DNA of 64,000 nucleotides from Verrucomicrobiota bacterium (GCA_016222825.1 JACRQF010000019.1:186001-250000), one strand, 5' to 3'. Counted from the first letter of the stretch, positions 7,553-42,009 are shown. Notes: generated by a model not told the origin, from the letters alone. Numbers and translations are program-made.

Positions 7553-9841
7553 TTGCGCTTAGCCCACCTGTGGCTCTTTCTCTTCTCCCTCTCTGTCTCC
7601 GCCCAATCGCTCGTCCTCGATGAAGCGACGAAGGCGCAGAACTGGACAGGCGCCGGCCGAACGCGCGTCGGCGGCACGGCGTTCGTCGCCGTCGGCAGCC
7701 AATCCGCCATCGCATTGCGGATGATCCTGCCTCTGAGCGGCGACGGGCCGCGATGGGCGACACTCGCGTTGGCGCGCACCAACTGGAGCGGCTACACCAC
7801 GCTGCGCATCCGCGCGCTCGCCGAGGGGGCGTTCGAGCCGCCGCTGGATCTCGCAATCACCGACCAGGCGGGCCGGCGCTTCGTCGCCCCGCAGCCGCTC
7901 GCGCTCGGAGCGCCGGGCTGGAACGAATTTGATGTGGATCTCTCCAAAACCGGCGCGCTCGATCTCTCGCGGCTCCGGTCGCTGGCCATCGGCCTCGACC
8001 GGCCCCGTGGCATGGACGCTGGCGATTCCCGCCAGGCGCGATTCCACCTCGCCGACATCCGGCTCCTGACGAAAACGCCGCCCGCCGAAACCGCAGAGCA
8101 TCCCGGCCCGCAGCCGGTGCCGGAGCTTCGCGTCAGCCTCGGCCAGATTTTCCCGCAAAACCTGATTGTCGAGAAGTTCCGCATTGCCGCCGGCGCCAAC
8201 CTGCTCGCGCGGCTTGTGCTGTTGCTGACCGACGACGTGTTGTTCGATCCGTTGGCCCGCACGAATTTCGTGCGCGGCATCGAAGCGCAGGCGGCGGCGC
8301 TCAAGAGCCAGACGAACCTCGTCGGCATTTCCTTTTCTGTTTCCGTTCCGCCGATCACCGCCGGCTCGCCACTCAAGCTTCAGTCATTTCGAGGTTGGCT
8401 GACGAACGCTTACGCCACCGTCGGTGACCTGAACGGCCGGTGGGACACGAAACTGAAACGGCTCGACGACGTGGCCTGGCCGGACGCCGCGCAAACCGCC
8501 GCATGGCGAGACGCCGTCACGTTCTGGCAGGAGTCGGTGACGCGAACGTTGCGCGAGACGATGCTGGCAGCCCGGCGCGGCTCGCCGCGCGCTTATCTGT
8601 TGATGCGGCTGGAGCGGCTGTCCGGCGAGGCATGGCGCGAGCGACCGCTTGATTACTATGCCATCCAGCGCACGGTCGGCTGCTCGCACTACTCGCTGGC
8701 CGACGGCGGCGGCGACTCGCGCGAGTTCGTCAGTGGTGGCGAGACGCGGGCGCTGGTCTCGGCGCTCGCGACGCAAATCAACCGCCGGCTCTGGGCGGAT
8801 TCGTTCGACTGGAGCGCGCCGGAAGGTCGCTGGCTGCGCGGGCCGGCCGCGAAATGGCTCGACGCCGTCGCCTCACGGAATCTCTGGCTGCAACTGGCCG
8901 CCGGCAAGGACGGCGTCAGCGTGCCGGAAACGGTGCCGGCGCTGGATGAGATCGCGCGGCAGATCAAGCCATTGTGGCCGGTGTTCGTGGCGACAAGGCC
9001 CGTCAGCCCGAAACTCGGCGTCGTTTGCTCGGCTTCATCGCGGTTAATGAACCCGGCGGTAGAGCGGGAAGAGAGCCGGTTCTTCGAAACCTTCTGGGCC
9101 GGTGGCTGGCAGGCGGCGGTGGTTTATGAGGAGATGTTCCGCGATTATCCGAAAGCGCTCGGCGACTACAACGTGCTGGCGCTCGGCGGCACGACGCATC
9201 TGCCCGGCTGGTTGCAGGACGCACTGCTCGCGTGGGTGGAGAACGGCGGCACGCTGCTCTGTTCCGGCCCGCCGGGCTTGTTCGATCCGTGGGGCCGGCG
9301 GCTGGCGCGACTGATGTGGGAAACGTTCGGCGTGGATGAGGCGCGCTTCGAGAACCCAGCAACGTCGTGGCGCTGGCGGATGGACACGGCGCGGGTGAAG
9401 ACGAGTTGCGTCATCATGGCCTCCGACGACGCGGGCGCGCCACTGGCGATCCGGGCGCCACACGGCCGGGGTGAGATCGTCGTATCGCTCGCGCCGTTCG
9501 GCGAGGTGAAGCAGCTCCGCGACTACTGGCAGTGGAAACTCCACGACCGCGTGAAGCGCGACATTGAATCACCGGAGCGCAATCTCCATCTCGACTGGCG
9601 GCCGACGGAGAATCCCCGGACATTTTTCTCCGTCGCGATCAACCTCTCGCCCTACGTGCCGTTGAAGACCTTCATCATCGCCAACGACCGTTTCAGCCGC
9701 GTGCTGAACCTCAGCGCCGACGGCGGCGCAAGCCCGCTGCCGCGCGAGACGACGGAGCTTTCGACGACGTTCCCGCTGGAGTTGCCGCCCGGCGGCGGCG
9801 CCGTGTTGATGCTGGAGAAATCTTCCGCGCGCCAACGGTGA
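7553..9841 (+). CDS. secreted GH42-like (beta-galactosidase-like) protein
   Basis: No enzymatic proof is visible, but the middle part reads FRGWLTNAYATVGDLNGRWD, the arrangement seen in GH42 barrels and nearly the same as FRAWLKKKYGDIAVLNRRWG in the protein at 45511-48519. An N-terminal jelly-roll-like domain comes first. After the barrel, a Rossmann-like segment (VLALGGTTHLPGWL, WVENGGTLLCSGPPG) matches the trimerisation domain of GH42 enzymes. I start at the TTG at 7553 (RLAHLWLFLFSLSVSAQS signal peptide); earlier starts at 7406 or 7418 would add a basic stretch encoded by the inverted repeat. The last 33 codons are echoed at 13857-13958. Confidence 0.6.
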   Translation: MRLAHLWLFLFSLSVSAQSLVLDEATKAQNWTGAGRTRVGGTAFVAVGSQSAIALRMILPLSGDGPRWATLALARTNWSGYTTLRIRALAEGAFEPPLDLAITDQAGRRFVAPQPLALGAPGWNEFDVDLSKTGALDLSRLRSLAIGLDRPRGMDAGDSRQARFHLADIRLLTKTPPAETAEHPGPQPVPELRVSLGQIFPQNLIVEKFRIAAGANLLARLVLLLTDDVLFDPLARTNFVRGIEAQAAALKSQTNLVGISFSVSVPPITAGSPLKLQSFRGWLTNAYATVGDLNGRWDTKLKRLDDVAWPDAAQTAAWRDAVTFWQESVTRTLRETMLAARRGSPRAYLLMRLERLSGEAWRERPLDYYAIQRTVGCSHYSLADGGGDSREFVSGGETRALVSALATQINRRLWADSFDWSAPEGRWLRGPAAKWLDAVASRNLWLQLAAGKDGVSVPETVPALDEIARQIKPLWPVFVATRPVSPKLGVVCSASSRLMNPAVEREESRFFETFWAGGWQAAVVYEEMFRDYPKALGDYNVLALGGTTHLPGWLQDALLAWVENGGTLLCSGPPGLFDPWGRRLARLMWETFGVDEARFENPATSWRWRMDTARVKTSCVIMASDDAGAPLAIRAPHGRGEIVVSLAPFGEVKQLRDYWQWKLHDRVKRDIESPERNLHLDWRPTENPRTFFSVAINLSPYVPLKTFIIANDRFSRVLNLSADGGASPLPRETTELSTTFPLELPPGGGAVLMLEKSSARQR

Positions 9842-33988: not shown

Positions 33989-36721
33989 CTACGGCTTGCG
34001 GCTCACCCAGATCGGCGAGGTCCAAGCTAGATCGTTCGTGCCGACCTGGGCGCGGACGTAGTAATAGGCGCTCTGGCCGGGCTTCAGCGCCGGGTCGGTG
34101 AAGGTGAACGTGGCCTCGGTCGCGTTGGGCTTGCTCGTATAAACGAACTGGCCGTCGCGGACGACCTGGACGAGCGCGAGCGGTTCGGCGGCGGCAAGCT
34201 TTGCCTCGATCTTTGGCGCGGCCGTCACTTCAATCTCCTCGCCCTGCGGTTTGCCGCCGATGCGCGTTTGGATGGAAACCTTGGTTGTGCCGCCAAAGGT
34301 GCGGCGGGCGCGCAACGCATCGAGGATGGCTTTGCGGCTGAAGTCGGTGGCCCAGACGCCCGCGTTGGCGATGTGGGTCTGGCCATGGTCGCTGGAAGCG
34401 ATGATGCCGATGCGAACGCCTTTGGCGAGGGCGTCCCACATGAAGTTGCCCGGCGTCATGATGCGCGCGGCGCGCGGACAGTCGGCGAACTCGTAGTTGC
34501 CGCGGACCTGGAAGATTTCGGCGACGCGCTCGTGCTCCTTGTTCCACTTGTCCCAATCCATGCGCGAGCCGGCGTCAGCAAGCTGGTGCGGAATGGCGAT
34601 GCAGCCGCTGTTGGCGAGCACGCGGAAAAGCTCCTCCGGCGAGTCGTCTTCGCGCACGGACCGGCCGCGCACGTCGGAGATGATGTTCTTATGGCCACCG
34701 CGCTGCTGGTAGCTGCCGCCGTGTTCGTAGCCGTAGAGCGCGAGGAACCGGCCGGGGATGCTGTAGAGGTCGCAGTATTTTTCCGAGCGCCACCACGCGT
34801 AGTCCTGACGCGGGCGGGCGATGCGGTCGCTGCGGTGCTTGAGGATGTCCTGGTCGTGGTCGCTGATGGCGAGCCAATCGAGCTTGTAGGCGTTGATCGC
34901 GTAACGATAGCCGTCCTGCAACGAGCCGTCGTAGCCGTTCGAGCATTGGCTGATGTCCGTGTGGCGGTGCGTATCGCCGAGCAAGAGGCGGTAGATCTTG
35001 CCGCCGACATTCCACTCGCGCGGCAACGGTTTCTGCTCCGCGTCGGCGTCGGCGGGCGTGACCTTGCCGAGATCGTCCACGGCGGCAAACTGCGCCGGGC
35101 GCGTCGCCGATCCGAAGCCTCGCAGCGACGCGACAAATACGTCATGGTCCACCGGCATCGCGGGCTTCAGCCGCGTGCGGTTGTCGCCGGCGAAGGCGAC
35201 GAGCAGGTCACCGTCGCGGTCGAGTGCGGTATCGAGCCGCATGTCCTGGCGGCCGTTGCTGCGCGGCAACACAATCGGCCGCGACCATTTCTCGCCGTCG
35301 TAGCACGTGGCGAAGAGCAACCACATGCAATGGGTCTGCGCCGTGCGCCCGCCCGTCGGCGGCACGACCGGTTGCACGTCGTTCTCGAAACGGTAGATGA
35401 CCCACACCCGGTCGCGGCCGTCCACGGCAACGGCGGGATATTCGATCCACCTCGCGCCCGGCACCGGCGAAGTCTCCATCAACGGCTGCGCGGGCCATGA
35501 GAGCTTGCCGCGCTCCAGACAAGCCACGTCGCTCCGCCGCCAACCATGCAGTCCGCTGGACTTCGCATACCAGGTCGGCCCGGTGTCGGCGGCCTTGGGA
35601 TGCCGGCCCCAATTCTCGCCGCTCACGTCCCACGCGATCCAGACGCGTCCCTTCGAGTCGGCGGCGACGCTCGCGTGAGCCTCGCGCAACGCCGACGCGG
35701 CGACAGGCATCGCCGGACCAAGCGGTTTGCTGTCGCGGAACTCGCGCGCGTAGATGTCGTAGCTGCCGTTGCGGTAGCTGTCCCACGCGACAACGATGCG
35801 GTCGTCGGGCGCGGCGCAAATCGCCGGCTCCCAGTCGTCACCGACGTCATCGCTGACGTTCACGGGCGCGCCGAGGCCGTCACTGCCGAGCTTCGCGAGC
35901 ATGACTTCGTAGTGGAGGTCTTCCGCGACCGTCTGCCACGCAAGCCAGAAATCGCCGCTCTTGGTGCGGGCTAGTCGCGGCCAGAAATCGTTCTGCGTCG
36001 AGCGCGTGAGCCGGATCGAGGGCTTGCCGGGCGTGCGCGCCCAGAGGTCCCATTGCTTGCCGTCGTTGGCGGCCCAGACGCACCAGAGTTCGCCGCGGCC
36101 ATTCACCGCGACGCGCGGCTCGTGAAAATCGCCGTCTTCGGTCAGCGGTTCCGCTTTGTCGCCGACGCGCAGCCAGACACGGTCTTTCTTCCCGTTCCAA
36201 GCAATGTATGCAACGGCCGCCCGGCCATCCGGCAGAACCGCAATGCTCGGAAACTCATCTTCCGCCTCGCCGCCGCTCGTCAGCGATTGCACGTCCGGCA
36301 GGCAACGCAGCCGCACGCGTTCGTCGAGGAAGTTCATGTCGCGCCGTTTCGCGATGTCAGCCAGCGGCACGGCGATGTCGCCAAGTTTCGTCGAGCACGC
36401 CAGCGTGGCCGACAGCGGCGCGCTCACGTCCAGCAACAAGCCTTTGCCGAGTGTGGAGCGGCGAACATTGCGGCCTTGTTTGACCGTGCCTTTGCCGTGC
36501 TGAGTGCGCGCCTGCCAGGCTGCGCCGTCAAGCTTGTCGGTGTCCTCGAAGAGCCACTCGCGCACGGTGACCTTGCCGCCGTCGCTGACGCGAGCCGAGC
36601 CGTCCCATGCGACAGCGGGGCCGATGGTTTTCTCGTTGAGGGTGAGCCAGAGGGTGAGGTTCTCGCCGCGGGCAGAGGCCGCCAACAGCGCCAGTGTGAG
36701 ACACAAGGCAGAAGTTTTCAC
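33989..36721 (-). CDS. secreted PHP-domain metallohydrolase-like protein (DUF3604/CehA-like)
   Basis: The 910-residue product starts at a GTG and has a signal peptide (TSALCLTLALLAASARGE). Residues about 130-560 carry repeated beta-propeller-like strands (GRAAVAYIAWNG, GELWCVWAANDG, GDFWLAWQT, GRVWIAWDVSG). The C-terminal part from about 578 is a PHP-type phosphoesterase fold: GDTHRHTDIS, AISDHDQD, YGYEHGG, IPHQ and SSDHGQTH supply the metal-binding His and Asp residues. A terminal Ig-like domain follows. Substrate unknown; relatives hydrolyse esters or phosphoesters. A 7-bp hairpin (36723-36743) ends one base before the GTG. Confidence 0.8.
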   Translation of the reverse strand: MKTSALCLTLALLAASARGENLTLWLTLNEKTIGPAVAWDGSARVSDGGKVTVREWLFEDTDKLDGAAWQARTQHGKGTVKQGRNVRRSTLGKGLLLDVSAPLSATLACSTKLGDIAVPLADIAKRRDMNFLDERVRLRCLPDVQSLTSGGEAEDEFPSIAVLPDGRAAVAYIAWNGKKDRVWLRVGDKAEPLTEDGDFHEPRVAVNGRGELWCVWAANDGKQWDLWARTPGKPSIRLTRSTQNDFWPRLARTKSGDFWLAWQTVAEDLHYEVMLAKLGSDGLGAPVNVSDDVGDDWEPAICAAPDDRIVVAWDSYRNGSYDIYAREFRDSKPLGPAMPVAASALREAHASVAADSKGRVWIAWDVSGENWGRHPKAADTGPTWYAKSSGLHGWRRSDVACLERGKLSWPAQPLMETSPVPGARWIEYPAVAVDGRDRVWVIYRFENDVQPVVPPTGGRTAQTHCMWLLFATCYDGEKWSRPIVLPRSNGRQDMRLDTALDRDGDLLVAFAGDNRTRLKPAMPVDHDVFVASLRGFGSATRPAQFAAVDDLGKVTPADADAEQKPLPREWNVGGKIYRLLLGDTHRHTDISQCSNGYDGSLQDGYRYAINAYKLDWLAISDHDQDILKHRSDRIARPRQDYAWWRSEKYCDLYSIPGRFLALYGYEHGGSYQQRGGHKNIISDVRGRSVREDDSPEELFRVLANSGCIAIPHQLADAGSRMDWDKWNKEHERVAEIFQVRGNYEFADCPRAARIMTPGNFMWDALAKGVRIGIIASSDHGQTHIANAGVWATDFSRKAILDALRARRTFGGTTKVSIQTRIGGKPQGEEIEVTAAPKIEAKLAAAEPLALVQVVRDGQFVYTSKPNATEATFTFTDPALKPGQSAYYYVRAQVGTNDLAWTSPIWVSRKP

Positions 36722-37271: not shown

Positions 37272-37769
37272 CTAGGACGACGGCGGGTTCGCCTCCGGCT
37301 TCGGTTCCTCAAACACCTTCGTGCCGTAGGGAATCGGCGGTTTCGCATGGACCGCCTGGCTCATCGCTTCGATCCGCCACTGGCCGCCCTCGTTCTTCAG
37401 TTCGACCGTCTGGCGCTGGTTCTTGTCCCGAAGAATGAACTCCACCTCGATGCGCGCGCGGTCTGGCCGCGCTTCCGCCAGCCGCGTCGTCGCGACGCCC
37501 ATCATCGGCGCCTGTGACTCCGCCAGATACTCGCGAAACCGCGCCTCGCCCATCTGCTGGCGCGTCGCGTCGAGTTGCGGGCGCATCGCGTCGGTGAAGC
37601 AATCGAGATAAGTGCGGACATCGCCGCGCCGGCTGGCGTCGAGCATCGCTTGGATGGCGTCCTCCGGCGTCGCAGCGTCGCCAGAGTCCGCCGGCCGGTT
37701 GCGGGCGGTGAACCACACGCCCGCTCCGATCAGCAGTAGCGTCAGGATAGTAATAAAATGGCGTTGCAT
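37272..37769 (-). CDS. membrane-anchored NTF2/DUF4878-like protein
   Basis: The 165-residue protein has one N-terminal helix (FITILTLLLIGAGVWF). A compact alpha-beta domain follows, with AIQAMLDASRRGDVRTYLDCF, then IEVEFILRDKNQRQTVELKN and GQWRIEAMSQ. That pattern matches NTF2-like stress or lipoprotein domains (inference from fold pattern). It starts 58 bases from, and is divergent to, the P-ATPase gene, so the two may share regulation. It converges with the FHA gene. Confidence 0.65.
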   Translation of the reverse strand: MQRHFITILTLLLIGAGVWFTARNRPADSGDAATPEDAIQAMLDASRRGDVRTYLDCFTDAMRPQLDATRQQMGEARFREYLAESQAPMMGVATTRLAEARPDRARIEVEFILRDKNQRQTVELKNEGGQWRIEAMSQAVHAKPPIPYGTKVFEEPKPEANPPSS

Positions 37770-37827: not shown

Positions 37828-40800
37828 ATGCCAACGCCTTGGAAACAACTCGGCAAGCCGCTCTTCATCGCCGGTATCGGCGCACTTCTCGCTCTTTACT
37901 GGCTCGGCTGGATCAAAAACGTCGGCCTGTTCGACATTGCCGTGCTCATCGCGCTGGTTGGCGGCTACAAGATTTTCGGCGACGCCGTCTGGGGGCTGCT
38001 CCACGGCAAAATCTCCAGCGACCTCGCCATCGCCATCGCGGCGTGCGCGGCGCTCGCCATCGGCCAATACTTCGCCGCTGCCGAGGTCATCTTCATCATG
38101 CTCGTCGGCGGCTGGCTCGAGGAACTCGCCGTGGACCGCACCCGCGGTGCGATCGAGAAGCTTATCCGCCTCGTGCCGCGTTCGGCGCACGTCCGGCGCG
38201 GCGACGAGATCGTGGAAGTCGCCATAACCGACATTCGACCCGGCGACGTCGTCGTGGTGCGGCCCGGCGAACGCATCGCGGTGGATGGCGAGGTAACGGA
38301 GGGTTCGTCTTCGGTGGATCAGAGCGCCATCACCGGCGAGAGCATTCCCGCCAGCAAAGCGGGTGGGGACAAGGTCTTCGCCGGCACCATCAACCAAGTC
38401 GGCTCGCTCGACGTGCGTGTGACCGCCGTCGGCGAGGACTCGACGCTCGGCAAGATCATTCATCTCGTCGAGGAAGCGGAGGAGAAGAAAGCCGCCGTCC
38501 ATCAACGCGCCGACCGCTGGGCCGTCTGGTTCGTGCCGGCGGTGCTGGCGCTCGGCCTGGCGACGTTTTTCTTCTCCAGCGGCGATTTCAACGCGCGGTT
38601 GATTCGCGCCGTCAGCGTGCTCATCGTTGCCTGCCCGTGCGCGCTGGTGCTGGCCACACCCACGGGCATCGCCGCCGGCATCGGCCGCCTCGCGCGCGCC
38701 GGTGTATTGGTGAAGGGCGGCGTTTACCTCGAACATCTCGCCCGCGTCCGCGCCGTCGTCTTCGACAAGACCGGCACGCTTACCGCCGGCAAGCCGCGCG
38801 TCGTCGAGGTGGTCGCATTCGCCGGCGACGAGCGCGAGATGTTTGCGCTTGCGGCGACGGCAGAGTCGCACTCCGAGCATCCGCTGGCACATGTCATCGT
38901 TGCCGAGGCGAAACGGCGCGGCATTACGTTGGGTCGGGCGGAGCGTTTTGAAGCCGCGCCCGGTCTCGGCATGGTTGCTGAGTGCAACGGCTCGCGCGTC
39001 ACTATCGGCAATCGCCAGCTTCTCCAGCAGCGCAGCATCGCGATTCCAGCGGAAGCCGAGGCGCGAATCACTCGACTGGAGGAAGTCGGCTACACCGTCG
39101 TGTTGGTCGCCACCAACGGTGCGGTTGCCGGTGCCATCGCCGTCATGGACACACCGCGTGATGACGCGAAAGACACCGTCGCGCAACTTCGCGCGCTCGG
39201 CATTGAGCACGTGCTCCTCCTGACCGGCGACAACGAGCGCGTTGGCCGTGCTGTCGGCGAGCGCGTCGGCATTAGCGAAGTTGGTGCGGGACTGCTGCCG
39301 GCAGACAAAGTCAGCCGCATTCGCGCGCTTCAGCAGCGCGGCCTGCCGACGGTGATGTGCGGCGACGGTATCAACGATGCGCCGTCGCTCGCGGCGGCGG
39401 ACGTGGGCGTGGCGTTGCACGGACTGGGGGCTGACATCACGCTCGAAGCCGCCGATGTCGTGCTGATGAGCGACGACCTGAAGAAGATTCCGTTCGCCAT
39501 CGAGTTTTGCCGGCGCGTCGTCGCGACCATCCATCGCAACATCTGGTGGTTCGCCATCGGCTTCAACGGCTCGGCGGTCTTCGCGGCGTCGCAGGGTTGG
39601 ATCGGGCCGATTGGCGCGGCGATCACGCATCAGATCGCGTCGCTGCTCGTCGTCTGCAATTCGCTGCGCCTGCTCTGGAGTGGCGAGTGGGCGGCGAAGC
39701 TCGCGGTGGCGTGGAAGCGGGAAGCGGAAGAGATGAAGCAGTTCGGCGCTTCTGTCACAAAGCTCTGCCGCGAGCATCCGCGCGGTGCGCGCTCGACGGC
39801 GGCGGCTGTGGTCGTGATCGGCTGGCTGGCGACGGGGCTGACGGTGATTCAACCGGACGAGGTCGGTGTCTGGCTGCATTTCGGAAAGAAGCAGGCGGTG
39901 CTGGGGCCGGGACTGCATTGCGTCTGGCCGTGGCCGTGCGATGAAGTGCCGCGCGTGTTGCCGGGCCGCGTGCAGCGCGTGCAGGTCGGTCTGCGCAGTG
40001 TGGAGCCGGCGGCGGCGAAACCGTGGTGGGAAACTTGGACGAAGCCGGCGCAGACAGGAGTGTCTGCGCCACCGGAGCCAACGGCTTACGAGTGGAACTA
40101 CGAGCACAAGGGCGGCTTCCAGTTCGTGCCGGAGGAGGCGACGACGGTCGTTGGGGACGAGAATCTCGTGGCGGTGACGATGGCGATTCATTTCGTGGAC
40201 AAGGATCCGGTGGCGTATCTGTTCGCGACGGTGGATCCCCCATCGCTGGTGAAGGCGCTCGCGGAGGCGGCGCTGCGCGACGCGGCGGGGCGCGCGACGG
40301 CGGAGGCGATGCTGACGACCGGCCGCGCGGCGACCGAACGGACTGTGATGGAGTATTTGCAGAAGCGGCTCGACGAATGCGGCGCGGGCATCGAGGTGCA
40401 GAGCGTGCGGTTGCAGGACGTGCATCCGCCGATCGAACTGGTGGACGCCTACCGCGACGTGGCGAGCGCGGTCGAGGAGAAGAGCCGCGTCATCAACGAA
40501 GCGGAAGGTTATCGCAACGAGCAGTTGCCGCTGGCGCGTGGCACGGCGACGAACACTGTGCTGGCCGCCACCGCCGCGCGTGACGCGAAGATCGCCGACA
40601 GCACCGGCAAGTCGGAGCGGTTCGCGGTGACGGTGAAGCCACTCGGCGCGCAGCGGGCGGCCCACGCGGAGCGGCTCTATCTGGAGTTGATGGAGGAGAT
40701 TTTGCCAAGCCAACAGCTTTACGTCGTGGACCGCCGCGGCAAGGGGCAGATTTACCTGCTGAACGACCGGCTCAAGGCGCTGTTGGGGCCAGCCGCGCAG

Positions 40801-40842
40801 TCCGCGCCCGCGCCCGCGCGTCCGACGATTCCCGAGGAGTAA
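37828..40842 (+). CDS. P1B-type ATPase fused to HflK-like SPFH domain
   Basis: One 1004-residue frame holds two usually separate proteins. Residues 1-640 are a complete heavy-metal P-type ATPase: TGES actuator (AITGESIPAS), membrane CPC (269-271) for soft metal binding, phosphorylation Asp313 in DKTGTLT, His351 in SEHPLA, TGDNERVG and GDGINDAP; no N-terminal metal-binding domain. Residues about 655-675 are a new helix (AAAVVVIGWLATGLTVI), followed by an SPFH domain from QPDEVGVWLHFGKKQAVLGPG to about 960, matching HflK. The last ATPase helix pair ends NSLRLLWSG, the natural C-terminus. A palindromic repeat (40047-40070) lies inside the HflK part. hflC follows after one base. Confidence 0.9.
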   Translation: MPTPWKQLGKPLFIAGIGALLALYWLGWIKNVGLFDIAVLIALVGGYKIFGDAVWGLLHGKISSDLAIAIAACAALAIGQYFAAAEVIFIMLVGGWLEELAVDRTRGAIEKLIRLVPRSAHVRRGDEIVEVAITDIRPGDVVVVRPGERIAVDGEVTEGSSSVDQSAITGESIPASKAGGDKVFAGTINQVGSLDVRVTAVGEDSTLGKIIHLVEEAEEKKAAVHQRADRWAVWFVPAVLALGLATFFFSSGDFNARLIRAVSVLIVACPCALVLATPTGIAAGIGRLARAGVLVKGGVYLEHLARVRAVVFDKTGTLTAGKPRVVEVVAFAGDEREMFALAATAESHSEHPLAHVIVAEAKRRGITLGRAERFEAAPGLGMVAECNGSRVTIGNRQLLQQRSIAIPAEAEARITRLEEVGYTVVLVATNGAVAGAIAVMDTPRDDAKDTVAQLRALGIEHVLLLTGDNERVGRAVGERVGISEVGAGLLPADKVSRIRALQQRGLPTVMCGDGINDAPSLAAADVGVALHGLGADITLEAADVVLMSDDLKKIPFAIEFCRRVVATIHRNIWWFAIGFNGSAVFAASQGWIGPIGAAITHQIASLLVVCNSLRLLWSGEWAAKLAVAWKREAEEMKQFGASVTKLCREHPRGARSTAAAVVVIGWLATGLTVIQPDEVGVWLHFGKKQAVLGPGLHCVWPWPCDEVPRVLPGRVQRVQVGLRSVEPAAAKPWWETWTKPAQTGVSAPPEPTAYEWNYEHKGGFQFVPEEATTVVGDENLVAVTMAIHFVDKDPVAYLFATVDPPSLVKALAEAALRDAAGRATAEAMLTTGRAATERTVMEYLQKRLDECGAGIEVQSVRLQDVHPPIELVDAYRDVASAVEEKSRVINEAEGYRNEQLPLARGTATNTVLAATAARDAKIADSTGKSERFAVTVKPLGAQRAAHAERLYLELMEEILPSQQLYVVDRRGKGQIYLLNDRLKALLGPAAQSAPAPARPTIPEE
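40047..40070. repeat. perfect 10-bp palindrome inside the HflK domain
   Basis: GGCGCAGACA and TGTCTGCGCC form a perfect stem with a 4-base loop. It encodes PAQTGVSAPPE between the strands VQVGLRSVEPAA and EWNYEHKGG of the SPFH domain, at about residues 740-748. The core resembles the palindrome at 4674-4698. Confidence 0.7.
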
Positions 40843-40843
40843 C

Positions 40844-41761
40844 ATGAACCCGAAACCCAAACTTCTCTCCTGTCTGGCTATCGCCGTCGTGGCGGCAGCG
40901 ATCTGGACATGCTTCTTCACGGTGCGCGAGAGCGAGAGCGTCATCGTCACGTTGTTCGGCAAGCCGGTGCGCACGCTCGACGACGCCGGGCTGGCGTTGA
41001 AATGGCCGTGGGAGGGCGTGCTGCGTTTCGACAAGCGCGTGCGCCTCTATGATGCGACGCCTTCGGAGTTCCTGACGCAGGACAAAAAGAACATCGTCGT
41101 CCAGAGCTTCGTAGCGTGGAAGATTGCCCAGCCACGGGAGTTCCTGCTCGCGGTGCGCGACACGCTCGGCGCGGAGATGCGGTTGCGCGACGTGCTCTGG
41201 AGCGAGCTTAGTTCCAAGCTCGGCGTGACGCCGCTGGCGGCGTTGCTCTCGACCAAGCCGGAAGAGATGAAGCTCGACAAGCTCTCGGAGGAAATTCGTG
41301 ACAAGTGCCGCGCGACTGCGCTGGCGCGTTACGGCATCGAGGTGGTGGATGTGCGGATCAAACGGCTCGGCTTCCCCGCGCAGAACCGCGACGCCGTATT
41401 CGAGCGGATGCGCGCGGAACGGCAGCGCGAGGCGAAACAGTTCCGCGCTGAGGGCCAGGAGGAGGCGATGAAGATCCGCGCCGAGGCCGACAAGCAGAAG
41501 GCGACGATCCTCGCCGAGGCGAACCGCAAGGCCGAGACGCTCAAGGGCGAGGGCGACGCGAAGGCGATTGAGATTTACAACTCCGCCATCGCGCTCGACC
41601 CGGCGTTCTACAAGTTCCTGCGGATGCTGGACGCGTATCGCGGCACGCTGAAGGAGAACACGACGTTGGTGCTCGGCAGCGAAAGCGACTTCCTCAAGCT
41701 GCTGACGGAAGGCGCGCAGGCGCTCGGCAATCGGCCGGCGGCGCACAAGGAGGCGAAGTGA
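40844..41761 (+). CDS. hflC: HflC-like SPFH membrane protein
   Basis: The 305-residue protein has an N-terminal helix (SCLAIAVVAAAIWTCFF) and the HflC core: FTVRESESVIVTLFGKPVRTLDDAG, FDKRVRLYDATPSEFLTQDKKNIVV. A long heptad-rich coiled coil follows (AERQREAKQFRAEGQEEAMKI...), typical for HflC. In E. coli HflK and HflC build a cage around the FtsH protease. Here the partner HflK is the C-terminal part of the preceding P-ATPase fusion, separated by one base, so co-expression is certain. No ftsH is in the window. Confidence 0.93.
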   Translation: MNPKPKLLSCLAIAVVAAAIWTCFFTVRESESVIVTLFGKPVRTLDDAGLALKWPWEGVLRFDKRVRLYDATPSEFLTQDKKNIVVQSFVAWKIAQPREFLLAVRDTLGAEMRLRDVLWSELSSKLGVTPLAALLSTKPEEMKLDKLSEEIRDKCRATALARYGIEVVDVRIKRLGFPAQNRDAVFERMRAERQREAKQFRAEGQEEAMKIRAEADKQKATILAEANRKAETLKGEGDAKAIEIYNSAIALDPAFYKFLRMLDAYRGTLKENTTLVLGSESDFLKLLTEGAQALGNRPAAHKEAK

Positions 41762-41999
41762 GACCATTTGCTTTCCTCCGCTGTCTGGAGATTTTGAGCG
41801 AGCTGACCGGCAAGACCGAATACCGGCAGGTGGGGCTTGATCGCATGGGGCGAACATCTTTAGTGGGACGAGCGCGAGGACAAGGCCGTGGCGACGCTTT
41901 TCGACCACGATGGGCGATGTGCTGTTGTATGCGCTGCTCCGGCTCGACCTGGCGTTGAACAAGACTTCAGTCTCGCTGTCGGACGTGCTCGTTGATTAA
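41762..41999 (+). pseudogene. possible decayed gene between hflC and the GH10 gene
   Basis: The first frame reads RPFAFLRCLEILSELTGKTEYRQVGLDR. A second frame gives AVATLFDHDG, and a third reads LLYALLRLDLALNKTSVSLSDVLVD before a stop at 41997. The pieces have coding-like composition but lie in different frames, as if indels broke a short gene. I do not recognise a family. It could equally be untranslated spacer. Confidence 0.3.
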
Positions 42000-42009
42000 C
42001 TACAGGCCA

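Follow-up and report, generated by a model that had tools for sequence, protein, structure and literature searches.

We found that one open frame on the forward strand of the window, by which we mean the whole 64,000-nucleotide stretch of Verrucomicrobiota DNA that was analysed, joins a P1B-type metal ATPase to an HflK-like SPFH protein, here called HflK1, in a single chain of 1004 residues (37828-40842, +). Consistent with the sequence-only reading, a complete P1B ATPase runs, without a stop codon over all 1004 codons, through a membrane helix into an SPFH domain, a layout borne out by Pfam and NCBIfam; in the one chain Pfam finds E1-E2_ATPase (E = 9e-60, aa 115-290), Hydrolase (7e-32, aa 307-525) and Band_7 (2e-18, aa 673-894). 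The pump part (aa 1-616; 37828-39675, +) scores 597 bits against the P1B model TIGR01525, above the cut-off of 346, and has eight membrane helices, with CPC in M4 and, from an alignment of M6, HQ..S in M6; an N-terminal HMA domain is absent from this part. The TGES (169-172), CPC (269-271), DKTGT (313-317) and SEHP (349-352) motifs previously noticed are all present, together with GDGIND (512-517), and the catalytic motifs are invariant or nearly so across 45 fused members. A basic linker and a ninth membrane helix (aa 617-674; 39676-39849, +; AF2 helices at 620-649 and 651-668, hydropathy peak at 656-674) connect the pump to the SPFH (Band_7, PF01145) domain of HflK1 (aa 673-894; 39844-40509, +). 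The AF2 model of the fusion, made from an alignment of 45 relatives (mean pLDDT 80), lays out the eight pump helices, the linker and its membrane helix, the strands of the SPFH domain and, towards the C-terminus, a helix of 93 residues (aa 869-961; 40432-40710, +), dipping below pLDDT 50 in places in the region that bears the HflK1 signature. When the whole fusion was used in a fold search (Foldseek), the best 50 matches were all P-type ATPases, and the SPFH identification therefore rests on sequence profiles; the profile of the HflK1 part matches E. coli HflK (7vhp) at E = 1e-51. Because the score against the HflK model TIGR01933 (150.9-154.6) falls just under the cut-off of 159.4, "HflK-like" is the exact word for the SPFH half, which is not a canonical HflK; the relatives L110 (218.6) and L121 (210.4) pass the same model.

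The gene hflC (305 aa; 40844-41761, +; TIGR01932 196.9 bits, cut-off 134.4) begins one base past the end of the fusion at 40842, again as first read, and thus directly adjoins the HflK-like gene, the adjacency by which HflK is recognised. The unit is bigger than was then seen: in nearly all loci with enough contig, the order is exporter-HflK1 fusion, hflC and a second, unfused hflK2, usually with an NTF2-like gene in the P1B loci. The NTF2-like protein is short, with one membrane anchor, and is encoded in 60 of 85 loci; its gene lies downstream of hflK2 in most relatives and, in the window, divergently just upstream of the fusion (37272-37769, -), and its AF2 model (pLDDT 88) gives weak matches to ketosteroid isomerase/NTF2 folds. 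Also upstream in the window is a 910-aa gene (33989-36721, -), syntenic in L042, whose C-terminus is like that of the genes that immediately precede the fusion in L009, L010 and L013; it is perhaps a conserved neighbour. Synteny breaks directly behind hflC (41730-41761, in the stretch 41730-42000), where hflK2 comes next in L042 and L043 and is found elsewhere in the window's genome, on another contig (G000:C14:97280-98191; L194:5275-6240, -), at 91% identity to the L042 hflK2. The alignment with L042 follows the window up to L042 position 8998 (window 41730) and, from position 9006, follows contig C14 (L194 position 6176), which is contiguous past hflK2 with what follows hflK2 in L042; the separate contig may reflect a rearrangement or a misjoin. 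This displaced hflK2, if it is a misjoin, is the one observation that lends anything to an assembly or frameshift artefact, and it lends nothing where the fusion itself is concerned; since the fused frame is open in over 60 other, independent genomes, that explanation has practically no weight.

The P1B-HflK fusion was in fact found beside hflC, as had been proposed for a check, in more than 60 other genomes, at 39-90% amino acid identity, from Acidobacteriota, Verrucomicrobiota, Armatimonadota and Aminicenantes. A frameshift at the junction, or a fusion confined to this assembly, is excluded by the same open join in the MAGs L042 (90% amino acid identity), L044 and L045 and in dozens of proteins at 39-46% identity; in a sample of 388 genomes from the phylum, five other proteins aligned with that of the window across the junction (42-45% identity). 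A wide scan of 84,980 species kept 80 loci, almost all from MAG or draft records, a few of which may be misbinned; its query, an alignment restricted to the HflK part, kept it free of bias towards the pump. DKTGT lies in the same open frame in 62 of these loci and Pfam identifies a further P1B fusion in L092, so that 63 of 80 have the P1B fusion with hflC, and with hflK2 where the contig extends; the rest comprise seven CDF loci, nine cut at a contig end before the pump and one broken frame (L086). The loci come mostly from Acidobacteriota, then from Verrucomicrobiota, Armatimonadota, Aminicenantes and Eisenbacteria. Two apparent fusions of canonical HflK, of 1203 aa (L190) and 779 aa (L161), were rejected as merely an unrelated open frame before the gene. 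The claim of an undescribed system stands as far as the literature searched, which largely excluded subscription journals: such exporter-HflK fusions were not found described there, and the words "ATPase" and "fused" are absent from "Evolution of prokaryotic SPFH proteins" (PMC2636767). The families of the parts are known; it is their union, repeated with unrelated exporters, that was not found described.

The exporter joined to HflK1 is exchangeable. A CDF exporter (PF01545) replaces the P1B pump in the seven scanned loci, in L184 and L201 by Pfam, and in L185, L215, L216 and L218 by BLAST, and the fused part is ArsP_1 in L159 and L188 (PF03773, from Pfam) and in L186, L187 and L189 (from BLAST), so that three unrelated kinds of exporter are joined at the same place of HflK1. 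The C-termini of P1B, CDF and ArsP pumps are expected in the cytoplasm, and the SPFH domain of HflK is periplasmic; because of this expected cytoplasmic end, the ninth (HflK) helix can carry the SPFH domain into the periplasm, and the domain order fits the family topologies. The sequence-only reading had offered, as one possibility, that the pump energises the cage. A ring doing mechanical work through the pump's ATP hydrolysis would be in keeping with the full set of catalytic motifs in the P1B part, but since the CDF and ArsP_1 parts that replace it in homologous operons lack an ATPase, we consider this very improbable.

In a fourth form, seen in L160, L200 and eleven Verrucomicrobiota loci, HflK1 has another, unassigned multi-helix N-terminus and is followed by hflC, hflK2 and, behind them, a P1B ATPase encoded as a gene of its own; L201 has the same gene order but carries a degenerate CDF on its HflK1. 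The multi-helix N-terminus, for which Pfam gave no match in L160 and L200, may itself be a degenerate CDF (L160, L200, L207-L214, L217, L219, L220). The P1B ATPase of L160 (7258-9366) has CPG, not CPC, in M4. A separate P1B gene follows the unit in 13 of the 14 Verrucomicrobiota loci examined, and coordinates place a same-strand P1B gene close behind the HflK matches in at least 16 Verrucomicrobiota genomes. Where one lineage has two genes side by side and another has them fused, this is a classical sign of joint function. The window's genome also encodes a standalone P1B ATPase (G000:C24; L193:3484-5712, -) that begins in HMA-like fashion with GMTCAGC and has HQ..S in M6 as well; at 45% identity, it is likely an unfused relative of the pump part. 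The separate P1B genes, which occur in the same operon in many Verrucomicrobiota, mean that covalent linkage is not essential, and could be taken to favour mere co-expression, in which fusion would equalise the amounts of pump and HflK1 in one membrane patch with no shared chamber or coupling. However, unrelated metal exporters have repeatedly been fused at the same end with all three SPFH genes retained, and we regard co-expression alone as improbable.

HflK1 is further distinguished by a signature, P-x-x-YEWNxxH, in an insertion ahead of the conserved GDEN element; in the window it reads YEWNYEH (aa 754-760; 40087-40107, +), and P751, Y754, E755, W756 and H760 are invariant in an alignment of 45 P1B-fused proteins. 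WxxxH is present in 72 of 72 HflK1 of the P1B type (counting L044, with YEWNYEH, which the borders of the motif scan first missed), in 13 of 13 with another domain, in 9 of 13 with CDF and in none of five with ArsP. Canonical HflK lacks it (0/33), and it occurs in 1 of about 106 HflK2, at a different place, when nine HflK1 that are broken or cut by a contig end are left out of the count. HflK1, HflK2 and canonical HflK are mostly separate in a tree built from 101 HflK-type domains. The P1B-fused rows and four of the five ArsP-fused rows fall together, with the ArsP rows nested among the P1B-fused, and a second group takes in most of the CDF-fused rows together with a single P1B-fused row (L112); CDF-type HflK1 and their HflK2 show sub-groupings that agree. 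Since support for the deep branches is weak, and several of the rows are long, the tree does not fix the number of exporter exchanges, of which there were likely at least two.

The window's genome has a canonical hflKC on contig C11 (280 bits), and therefore the fused system there is an addition; separate canonical HflKC also occur in the genomes of L042 and L045 (270-280 bits for the three). HflK exceeded the cut-off in 77 of 199 genomes of an Acidobacteriota sample, where frame lengths indicated 12 fusions of the P1B type, three CDF-sized and five ArsP-sized, most of these checked, and in 11 of 121 Armatimonadota, all 11 with an HflK1 and HflK2 pair (on two contigs in G390). CDF-sized fused frames are present in six of 8 genomes of the Eisenbacteria group. 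Several Acidobacteriota genomes, and those of the Armatimonadota, have no other HflK over the cut-off, and in Armatimonadota and some Acidobacteriota the fused system is the only HflKC-type complex seen. One could therefore envision that the system replaces canonical HflKC in such genomes and serves as a proteolysis hub, its ring enclosing FtsH, which E. coli HflKC is known to bind (PMC12048511), with the tethered exporter either letting metal status tune FtsH or shielding this zinc protease and its substrates from metal, and export being secondary. The separate canonical HflKC of the window, L042 and L045 genomes speak against this, as does the failure to recognise ftsH among the annotated neighbours, and both the exporter exchange and the His-rich tails described below point to transport; we consider such a hub rather unlikely.

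Several traits bear on the metal. At least 8 His within a run of 30 residues in the N-terminal part were found in 17 of 111 partner HflC, compared with 0 of 32 canonical HflC; the richest tail has 18 His of 30, and five HflK2 also have His-rich tails. HflC is expected to have its N-terminus in the cytosol. A His-rich tail is lacking in the HflC of the window. P1B-4 pumps have SPC in M4 and HEGST in M6, P1B-2 pumps (ZntA) have an Asp in M6, and CPC is typical of P1B-1/2. The window pump, having CPC and HQ..S instead of SPC and HEGST, falls outside P1B-4 (CoaT-like), and with His-Gln where the M6 Asp is expected it falls outside P1B-2 as well. Its nearest solved structure in the fold search is 7qbz (37% identity), a P1B ATPase named cadmium-translocating, with which it shares the M6 histidine. 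The CDF parts of the scanned fused loci have HxxxD in helices 2 and 5 (read by eye), which we take as pointing to a Zn2+-like ion. A ZnuB/ZnuC-type ABC transporter lies behind the ArsP locus L187, and L159 has a ZIP transporter and an efflux protein of the outer membrane (OEP) beside it. Because 7qbz is nearest, and because of the M6 His, as in P1B-4, the CPC, the CDF HxxxD and the ZIP and Znu neighbours, Zn2+ or a similar divalent ion is the probable substrate. FeoB lies directly upstream of the CDF-HflK1 fusions of L117 (3479-5293) and L121 (4315-6072), placing an iron importer beside a presumed exporter. Nearby FeoB and Znu importers do not speak for efflux alone.

Taken together, we favour, with somewhat better than even confidence, a reading that makes the fusion the core subunit of a modular complex for metal efflux, its exporter tethered in an SPFH ring. 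HflK1, HflC and HflK2 would assemble at the inner membrane, on its periplasmic face, into a hetero-oligomeric ring or dome like that of HflK and HflC in E. coli. The exporter, whether fused to the N-terminus of HflK1 (P1B, CDF or ArsP_1) or encoded in the operon as a separate P1B pump, would thereby be held at the ring, and metal, most likely a Zn2+-like divalent ion, would be released into a confined space in the periplasm or at its rim. Since an unfused hflK2 is always there, it seems that a pump sits on only some of the HflK positions; HflK1 may occupy some and HflK2 others, spacing the exporters regularly round the base of the shell. Twelve P1B pumps round one ring might clash, and HflK2 as a spacer keeping them apart, a guess, is the sole answer we can offer. 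The cytosolic His-rich tails that HflC or HflK2 bear in some lineages would gather metal for export, and the NTF2-like protein, anchored in the membrane, would work on the periplasmic side. The fusions, their gene order and recurrence, the exchange of exporters, the signature and the His-rich tails are seen directly in the sequences; ring assembly, release into the ring, the division of labour, the metal and the benefit are inferred. Against this favoured reading are the absence of WxxxH from ArsP-fused and some CDF-fused HflK1, the lack of a His-rich tail on the window's HflC and the position of its hflK2 outside the operon. The fuller proposition, an undescribed transport machine in which a periplasmic SPFH cage has an HflK1 with exchangeable exporter, metal exits into a secluded chamber and His-rich SPFH tails feed the pumps, we put forward more tentatively, at slightly less than even confidence.

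To our knowledge, the clients of most SPFH cages are unknown or disputed. Here evolution appears to have welded a client to such a cage several times, with unrelated metal exporters, and a covalently defined client offers a direct way to test what SPFH rings do in transport. These phyla are abundant in soil and water and hardly studied; the findings suggest scaffolded or chambered efflux as a form of metal homeostasis in them, and recurrence in several phyla points to an undescribed machine linking metal export to a membrane cage.

Among known systems, stomatin, an SPFH dome reported to enclose aquaporin-1 and urea transporter-B (PMC12407830), is alike in holding transporters and, by analogy, shows that SPFH domes are able to do so, although it is eukaryotic and its clients are non-covalently held channels, not metal exporters. 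The fused pump shares all catalytic motifs and the CPC in M4 with P1B ATPases (7qbz; ZntA, 4umv/4umw; CopA), but is without an HMA domain and its C-terminus runs on into HflK; its M6 HQ..S resembles the HEGST of P1B-4, yet its M4 has CPC, not SPC. The fused CDF parts match CDF exporters of the ZitB/YiiP type in PF01545 and in HxxxD of helices 2 and 5, but no separate C-terminal dimer domain was matched and HflK stands in its place. In L159 and L188 the fused ArsP_1 parts resemble ArsP_1 permeases in PF03773 and in a CSC motif, but they continue into HflK1, behind which come hflC and hflK2. In E. coli, HflK and HflC take turns round a 24-subunit shell whose SPFH domains lie at the membrane (PMC12048511), and the fused system resembles them in the SPFH domain, the single helix before it, the long C-terminal helix and the adjacent hflC, while differing in its N-terminal pump, the second hflK in the operon and the WxxxH insertion.
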